This document shows positions 62,354 through 63,408 of a DNA stretch of 64,000 nt, in pieces. Position numbers and translations under genes: made by a program. Within the stretch, counting starts at the first letter, position 1. Each line of letters starts with the position of its first letter. The DNA is from Tabrizicola aquatica. GTDB lineage: Bacteria; Pseudomonadota; Alphaproteobacteria; Rhodobacterales; Rhodobacteraceae. The stretch spans positions 372,001-436,000 of the forward strand of contig NZ_PJON01000003.1 of NCBI RefSeq assembly GCF_002900975.1, in the 5' to 3' direction. The notes beneath the pieces were generated by a model. It had not been told where the DNA came from. It saw nothing but the letters and a program-made list of their open reading frames with translations, and made no database searches.

Positions 62354-62626
62354 ATGCGGGTGCTTTCCCCGGCCTTGGCCCTTGTCCTTCTGGCGGCGCC
62401 CGCCCTGGCGCAGGATTTCACCGAAGACCAGAAGGCCATGTTCATCGACGCCATCGCCGCGAATGATTGCAGCATGACCGAGGACGAGGCCGAAGAGCTG
62501 ATGCCCGCCGCCGGGATCACGCGTGAGGTGTCGGGCGCGATCGCGGTCTATCTGATCGACCGCAATCTTGCCGTGCTGTCCGACGACATGAAGCTGCTGA
62601 CGCTGAGCGACGAGATCTGCCAATGA
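62354..62626 (+). CDS. Exported single Cys-pair-domain protein in the nuo operon
   Basis: Protein of 90 aa: signal peptide MRVLSPALALVLLAAPALAQ and one small domain of about 65 residues with two cysteines (NDCSMTEDEAEELM, Cys39; DEICQ, Cys89). The region between them (PAAGITREVSGAIAVYLIDRNLAVLSDDMKLLTL) lines up with each of the three repeats in the next gene. Its stop overlaps the next start by four bases. Probably periplasmic with one disulfide. I do not recognise a named family; extra reading frames are known in nuo operons of Rhodobacter and Paracoccus. Confidence 0.72.
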   Translation: MRVLSPALALVLLAAPALAQDFTEDQKAMFIDAIAANDCSMTEDEAEELMPAAGITREVSGAIAVYLIDRNLAVLSDDMKLLTLSDEICQ

Positions 62627-63408
62627 CGCGCGCGCTTGCCTTTGGTCTGATGCTGCTTGCGACGCCGGTTCTGGCGCAGGATGTGGACGATCCCGAATTC
62701 GCCTATGTCATGCTGATGCAGTTCAACGGCTGCTCGATGGCCGAGGCCGATCTTGCCAGCCAGATGCAGGACGCCGGGATCGACCAGGCGACCTATCAGG
62801 CTGTGGCCGAGGCGCTGGTCGCCCGGGGCGATGCGGTGCTGACGGATGAGGCCGATGGCAGCAAGCGGGTCTCGATGCCCGAACATGCCTGCGCGCCGGT
62901 CGAAATCGAAGGTTTCGAGGAAGCCGCACAGCCATTGACCCCGCAGGGGGCAGAAATGCCCTACCGGGACGAAGTCTATACCAGCATCATGGCGACGAAC
63001 GGCTGCACGATGACCAAGGCCGCAATTGCCGAGCAGATGCCGGGTTACGGGTTGCGGCAGCATCTGCACGAGCCGATGACCCAGGCCCTTGTCGCCGCGG
63101 GGTCTGCCACGATCTCGGATGACGCTGACGGCAGTCAGCGCGTGTCGCTTGCGCCGGAAATCTGCACCCCCGATGCCCCGGCGACAACGCTGATCCCGGC
63201 CAAGCCCGAGAGCGTCGCCAAGTTCACCGATCTGCTGCTTTCGCGCGGCTGTACCCTGCCCATTGGCCAGCTTGAGGCCGTCGAGGCCGAACTGGGGCTT
63301 GAACCGGCGGAGACCTATCCGGTCACCGTGGTGATGGAACTGGCAGGCGAAGGCGCGATGGATTTTGCGAACGGTGTTTTCCGTCTGAACCACAAGGACT
63401 GCCCCTGA
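62623..63408 (+). CDS. Exported protein with three Cys-pair domains in the nuo operon
   Basis: Protein of 261 aa: signal peptide [19 protein letters not shown] and three repeats, each with a cysteine after a glycine ([30 protein letters not shown]) and a second cysteine 50-53 residues later (37/90, 128/181, 210/260). Repeats 1 and 2 share [28 protein letters not shown] sequence; repeat 3 has diverged and lacks the DEADGS stretch. Linkers are Pro/Ala-rich. It starts in an overlap with the single-domain gene and ends in an overlap with nuoE (TGATG), so it is made with complex I. Function unknown. Confidence 0.72.

Follow-up and report, generated by a model that had tools for sequence, protein, structure and literature searches.

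What do the two small genes between nuoD and nuoE of Tabrizicola aquatica encode, and do their products have a role alongside complex I? The genes are located close to the end of the window, i.e. the whole stretch of 64,000 nucleotides that was analysed. An earlier note on this DNA had described their products as secreted proteins consisting of one and three copies of an undescribed two-cysteine domain, and had proposed that they may be assembly or stability factors of complex I.

Two genes for exported proteins in the nuo operon

The following features were assigned to the region:

61007..62242, + strand: nuoD, 49-kDa subunit of complex I, the 5' neighbour (Pfam Complex1_49kDa PF00346, E 7.8e-117)
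62239..62352, + strand: hydrophobic open reading frame (ORF) of 37 amino acids (aa) with a TTG start, found in the sequence; its start overlaps the nuoD stop
62354..62626, + strand: 90-aa exported protein, ATG start, one two-Cys domain (C39/C89); the signal peptide ends in LAAPALAQ
62414..62623, + strand: two-Cys domain copy 1, in the 90-aa protein (profile, E 6.2e-24 in the own genome)
62623..63408, + strand: 261-aa exported protein, ATG start, three two-Cys domains; the signal peptide ends in LLATPVLAQ
62677..62895, + strand: two-Cys domain copy 2, C37/C90 of the 261-aa protein (profile, E 1.7e-16)
62950..63168, + strand: two-Cys domain copy 3, C128/C181 of the 261-aa protein (profile, E 2.2e-17)
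63196..63405, + strand: two-Cys domain copy 4, C210/C260 of the 261-aa protein, 'LNHKDC' type (profile, E 5.5e-14)
63408..64000, + strand: nuoE, 24-kDa subunit of complex I, the 3' neighbour (Pfam 2Fe-2S_thioredx PF01257, E 2.1e-51)

The Pfam matches of the flanking genes place the two genes between nuoD and nuoE, as had been claimed, and nuoE extends past the end of the window (391 aa in the locus L148). The arrangement of one plus three copies with cysteines at 39/89 and at 37/90, 128/181 and 210/260 was likewise found in the sequence; the repeat unit comprises about 70 residues, and the Cys residues of the window copies are spaced by 50 to 53 residues. According to crude N-terminal rules, both proteins carry an ordinary signal peptide, which agrees with their description as secreted proteins. 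The genes had also been said to overlap their neighbours. Indeed, the stop of the 90-aa gene and the start of the 261-aa gene have four bases in common (62623-62626), and the single base 63408 belongs both to the stop of the 261-aa gene and to the start of nuoE. However, there is no overlap between nuoD and the 90-aa gene: the 37-aa ORF, which the earlier note does not list, lies between them and ends one base before the 90-aa gene.

The 37-aa ORF has a counterpart in the same position in the locus L039 of genome G025, with 21 of 36 residues being the same by eye and the DNA being 66% identical across 109 bases. No counterpart was seen in L038, and its place is taken by the start of the domain ORF in L040 and L041. 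Because the counterpart in G025 is conserved, the ORF may be real and perhaps encodes a single-span membrane peptide.

An undescribed domain with one fixed cysteine pair

To test whether the repeats exceed chance, a profile was used that consists of 23 domains from the loci L048 to L126; the window was excluded from it, while its genus may be represented. The profile matched the window copies 1 to 4 with 53.8, 30.3, 31.6 and 21.3 bits, respectively, and 38 of 2000 shuffled versions of both proteins gave any match at all, the best one with 10.0 bits. In the own genome, the search uncovered the four window copies and two weak matches (E 0.0065 and 0.75), which were dismissed as chance after judging their frames by eye. 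An iterative search of the loci revealed 56 domain stretches in 37 ORFs, and 53 full-length domain rows make up the alignment A1. In the alignment A3, which contains 106 rows, C19 and C69 are the sole invariant columns, and no other column reaches 90%. The [GD]C[ST][ML] context that had been noted around the first cysteine thus describes the window copies (DCSM, GCSM, GCTM and GCTL) but does not extend to the family, in which only the two Cys are invariant.

Since the seed alignment had been trimmed according to a Cys-pair rule and is thus biased towards Cys, a Cys-blind search was run as a control, with Cys being masked in the model and in the targets. A Cys pair 44 to 56 residues apart was present in 109 of the 114 matches, and such a pair occurs in 20% of random 76-residue open-frame windows. 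Four of the five exceptions are alignments that end before the second Cys, which is present according to other alignments and sequences, and the fifth is clipped at the start of the sequence stretch. Both cysteines are therefore fixed, as the earlier note had anticipated. The family combines this pair with export signals, which were assigned by crude rules, and the disulfide is predicted. Chance ORFs with chance cysteines would be conceivable in this high-GC DNA, which has long open frames on both strands, and the background frequency of the Cys pair points the same way; homology across genera, purifying selection and the fixed cysteines refute this explanation, to which practically no weight can be given.

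Neither the 90-aa nor the 261-aa protein was matched by a Pfam or NCBIfam model above the curated cut-off. The lowest E-values obtained with the 53 rows of A1 were 1.6e-4 in Pfam (among 25 of 29 families) and 1.8e-4 in NCBIfam. Several candidate identities were discarded. DUF5333 and DUF5337 are not suitable names for the window genes, which have no Pfam match. A relationship to PBP4 (Peptidase_S13) was rejected as well: the match is below the threshold in L051 (21 bits, cut-off 22.8), concerns two of the 53 rows and is absent from the window copies, and the PBP4 of the own genome is located away from the two weak own-genome profile matches. Weak single-sequence matches in G055 (E 9.5e-4) and G057 (E 0.0024), two genomes that belong to other bacterial families, were not counted; both genomes were absent from the class-wide profile search. 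Profile matches to TALE-repeat entries of the PDB, with E-values down to 7.6e-16, are the sum of many 16-residue matches, none of which passes alone, and a PDB match to a de novo design (E 0.0007-0.002) covers about 27 residues and was not used. A plasmid search gave no match to the 90-aa protein or to a 782-aa repeat protein of the family. Finally, no literature on these genes was found in titles and abstract starts, no paper of the collection contains DUF5333, and the genes are not mentioned in the searched passages of PMC4859585 and PMC12361115. The two window genes code for proteins of an undescribed domain family whose unit has about 70 residues and a single fixed Cys pair, and the claim of an undescribed repeated domain is supported.

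The second half of the domain gave weak matches of the winged-helix type. The row from L056 matched MCM4_WHD (E 0.0017, 18.8 bits, cut-off 24.4), and the profile matched UFL1-DDRGK1 (0.0069) and SelB (0.013), both of which we take to be winged-helix proteins. These matches are no more than a lead towards a putative winged-helix fold of this part of the domain.

The number of domains per protein ranges from one to about ten. The 782-aa protein mentioned above is encoded in L045 and has 10 copies, L138 encodes an 866-aa protein in which 10 copies were scored and has a separate single-domain gene, and in L038 several single-domain genes, some of them broken, lie in tandem. Among 80 proteins that were scored with the crude N-terminal rules, 43 have a lipobox-like sequence, 29 an ordinary signal peptide and 8 an unclear N-terminus; six further proteins are cut and stand outside the 80. 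An invariant Cys pair in exported proteins that are made with a respiratory enzyme would also be expected of a periplasmic thiol-redox sensor or buffer, in which the pair switches with the redox state of the periplasm in a manner tied to respiration. However, two cysteines about 50 residues apart and lacking a CXXC arrangement are better suited to a structural disulfide, and the domain has no invariant column besides them. We consider a redox function very unlikely.

Distribution, genomic position and history

In a sample of the class, the domain was present in 3 of 385 genomes, all belonging to the same family, i.e. the window's own genome and two more. In a sample of this family (394 genomes, 393 genera), 132 genomes have the domain and 262 do not; about one third of the sampled genera carry it, and about two thirds show no copy. 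In what was searched, the domain is confined to this bacterial family. In a genus sample, 9 of 32 genomes gave a match; five of them are linked to nuo (G000, G008, G013, G018 and G025), the copies of G019, G023 and G030 had no nuo link that could be found, and G011 was not placed.

The position relative to nuoE was looked up for 112 positive genomes, the other 20 of the 132 not being placed; each genome contributed one or two places, 115 in total, and further copies were left out. NuoE was found in 110 of the 112 genomes. In 104 of these 112 genomes, a domain gene shares the strand of nuoE and precedes it by 0 to 2.4 kb; the median distance is 101 bp, and 26 of 105 near places are no more than 10 bp away. 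Among the eight exceptions, five (G371, G258, G394, G129 and G349) have only off-nuo copies among the places used, G266 has its copy on a 5-kb contig, and G402 and G174 have no nuoE match. Moreover, 20 of 80 nuoD loci contain the domain, in each case in the nuoD-nuoE gap (just after nuoD in the cut locus L054), and it occurs nowhere else in these loci, which cover 3.7 to 13.2 kb each. In L040, L041, L056, L063, L077 and L089, the first start of the domain ORF overlaps the nuoD stop; together with the overlaps in the window, this fits translational coupling. Homologues next to nuo in many genomes, which the earlier note had named as support, were thus observed. Homologues scattered away from nuo, which had been named as an observation against the proposal, exist as paralogues. 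The near-constant place in the operon suggests a role alongside complex I.

Some of the paralogues have recognisable surroundings. In L042, the gene for a three-domain protein is flanked by an SLT_2 transglycosylase gene and a Rieske ring hydroxylase gene (Pfam), and the same neighbours were seen by eye in L043; L044 has two scored copies, and neighbours of the L042 type are not clearly present. The single-domain copy of L134 lies beside the genes for CTP synthase and a DJC28_CD protein (Pfam), and L132 also has the CTP synthase neighbour by eye. A two-domain copy in L131 is adjacent to a gene for a 193-aa protein with no Pfam match, with L133 and L137 appearing similar by eye.

The family has mostly been inherited together with nuo, as the distances between the domains follow the nuo tree (Mantel r 0.60, p <= 0.0005; maximum of the 2000 null values 0.48; 43 taxa, the window not being included). 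For trees, 97 genomes were fetched, chosen mostly for contig room and not comprising the window's own genome, and 81 of them were used here and in the column test described below, 16 with missing or short subunits being dropped. On the 81-taxon tree, presence and absence require 21 changes compared to 27.2 for shuffled labels (minimum 20), implying many losses or regains. Among 80 domain-free genomes that were searched, nuoE is kept in all but two.

The sequences have diverged strongly. Between genera, the domain has a mean identity of 33%, compared to 78% for the concatenated NuoF, G, H, J, K, L, M and N. The window repeats are mutually 13-37% identical. G018 and G025 have the type of copy 4 as a separate gene close to nuoE; copy 4 is 39% and 33% identical to these genes, respectively, compared to 19% and 24% to copies 2 and 3. 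Because of these values, the three-copy protein is better explained by old copies that were brought together than by the recent internal duplication that had been assumed. The fast divergence, the repeat number of up to 10 per protein and the tandem genes with broken copies would also suit an envelope arms race, in which copy-variable exported domains either shield a target or bind an outside agent, be it a phage, a predator, a toxin or a protein of a competitor. Of the 60 closest pairs, 49 were usable and gave a median dN/dS of 0.21; the pairs have sequences in common and are in part saturated at synonymous sites. This value indicates that the domain, taken as a whole, is constrained, and the present data do not tie nuo to a role of this kind. 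An arms race is therefore an unlikely explanation.

The proteins may also be long-resident passengers of the operon: the junction would tolerate insertions, and the family would reside there for steady expression while doing an envelope job that is unrelated to complex I. In 40 domain-free genomes, nuoD and nuoE overlap in 15, are separated by 51-127 bases in 12 and by a larger gap in 13; with a slightly different gap measure, 14 genomes have at least 150 bases. The larger gaps house other small ORFs, which indicates that the site accepts genes in general. The patchy presence of the domain, its paralogues beside transglycosylase/Rieske oxygenase and CTP synthase/DJC28_CD genes and the lack of loop concentration in the column test described below also speak for a passenger. 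However, a passenger should appear at other nuo junctions too, and none was found in the examined nuo parts of the 80 loci; furthermore, the family follows the nuo tree. We rank this possibility about level with the tentatively preferred role as an accessory factor of complex I.

Other extra genes were observed in the nuo operons of the family. A type of multi-span membrane protein of about 120 aa, grouped by eye, is encoded in the nuoD-nuoE gap of L110 (7206-7568), L171, L175, L188, L191 and L207; in L110 it occurs together with two-Cys genes, and in several genera it is present without them. The gaps of L093, L123 and L125 contain genes for another secreted two-Cys type of about 105 aa (...NASFGM...LYLCFIAD...), and the member from L123 has no Pfam match. 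Downstream of the window, L148 has two genes between nuoE and nuoF, one for a 207-aa protein with no Pfam match (1242-1865; relatives in 95 of 97 genomes) and one for a 78-aa DUF5337 protein (PF17272; 1862-2098; E 1.4e-31; relatives in 79 of 97 genomes). A gene for a 134-aa lipoprotein-like protein with three Cys and no Pfam match lies between nuoG and nuoH (7055-7459; relatives in 76 of 97 genomes), and a gene that by eye looks like a phasin gene precedes nuoJ (8878-9438). DUF5337 resembles the window genes in being encoded by an extra gene of the same nuo operon; it differs in belonging to another family that the window proteins do not match, and in having no Cys.

Possible relation to complex I

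If the proteins act at the periplasmic side of complex I, traces might be visible in its subunits. Alignment columns associated with the presence of the domain were scored against a tree-based null, and the topology was predicted by hydropathy. This is a weak test with a crude topology and 81 taxa, in which NuoA, NuoI and the window's genome are not included, and in it the associated columns are not concentrated in the predicted periplasmic loops. The mean z was 0.39 for periplasmic, 0.41 for cytoplasmic and 0.44 for transmembrane positions, 0.18 for the soluble NuoF and NuoG, and 0.50 for the NuoH loops. Columns with z>3 numbered 8 in periplasmic loops (3.9 expected, p 0.09), 10 in cytoplasmic (3.2 expected, p 0.02), 26 in transmembrane (8.0 expected, p 0.003) and 11 in soluble parts (6.4 expected, p 0.12). 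By subunit, the mean z was raised in NuoM (0.66), NuoH (0.67), NuoF (0.62) and NuoL (0.42), with 0.00 for NuoG. Because NuoF, which is on the other side, is raised as well, we read the raised values as leftover relatedness; they are compatible with a general link of the domain to the membrane arm of complex I. The proposal of the earlier note that the proteins are complex I assembly or stability factors has so far found no support, considering the patchy presence, the off-nuo paralogues and the lack of loop concentration.

Extra proteins are known from an alphaproteobacterial complex I. The enzyme of Paracoccus denitrificans has four supernumerary subunits, NDUFS4, NDUFS6, NDUFA12 and CI-PIMT, which are bound to the core complex, CI-PIMT being located on the hydrophilic domain (PMC11522691). 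The available part of this source names no subunit of the two-Cys kind, and P. denitrificans may or may not carry the gene. In contrast to those subunits, the window proteins have export signals. Moreover, no complex I chain was among the matches listed in PDB sequence searches. In mitochondria, NDUFA8 and NDUFS5 are Cys-rich complex I subunits of the intermembrane space with twin CX9C motifs; they are small, disulfide-bonded and positioned at the membrane side equivalent to the periplasm. The window domain differs from them in having one Cys pair about 50 residues apart and no CX9C pairs, and no sequence relation between them was found.

We tentatively favour the view that the window proteins are a dispensable, co-inherited and exported accessory factor that is made together with complex I. 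The Cys pair would form a disulfide in the periplasm, and the protein may act at the periplasmic side of complex I, or on the surrounding membrane, as an accessory, assembly or stability factor that is not essential. The repeats could provide added binding sites, and the lipid anchor predicted for many members would tether the domain to a membrane. The patchy presence, the retention of nuoE in genomes that lack the domain, the off-nuo paralogues, the other tenants of the gap and the absence of loop concentration count against this role. It is a rather doubtful extension of the accessory role that the family constitutes a lineage-specific periplasmic module of bacterial complex I, i.e. exported one-disulfide domains, often lipid-anchored and long resident in nuo, that would bind the periplasmic face singly or as chains of repeats and have arisen independently of the mitochondrial disulfide subunits of the intermembrane space.

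An undescribed exported domain is thus carried by 132 of the 394 sampled family genomes, mostly within one of the best-studied bioenergetic operons. If the domain acts on complex I, it would represent an accessory module at the periplasmic side of the bacterial enzyme, in a group that serves as a model of the mitochondrial complex, and a simple deletion would suffice to remove this module. If it does not, the nuoD-nuoE junction would be a hosting site for fast-evolving envelope proteins.
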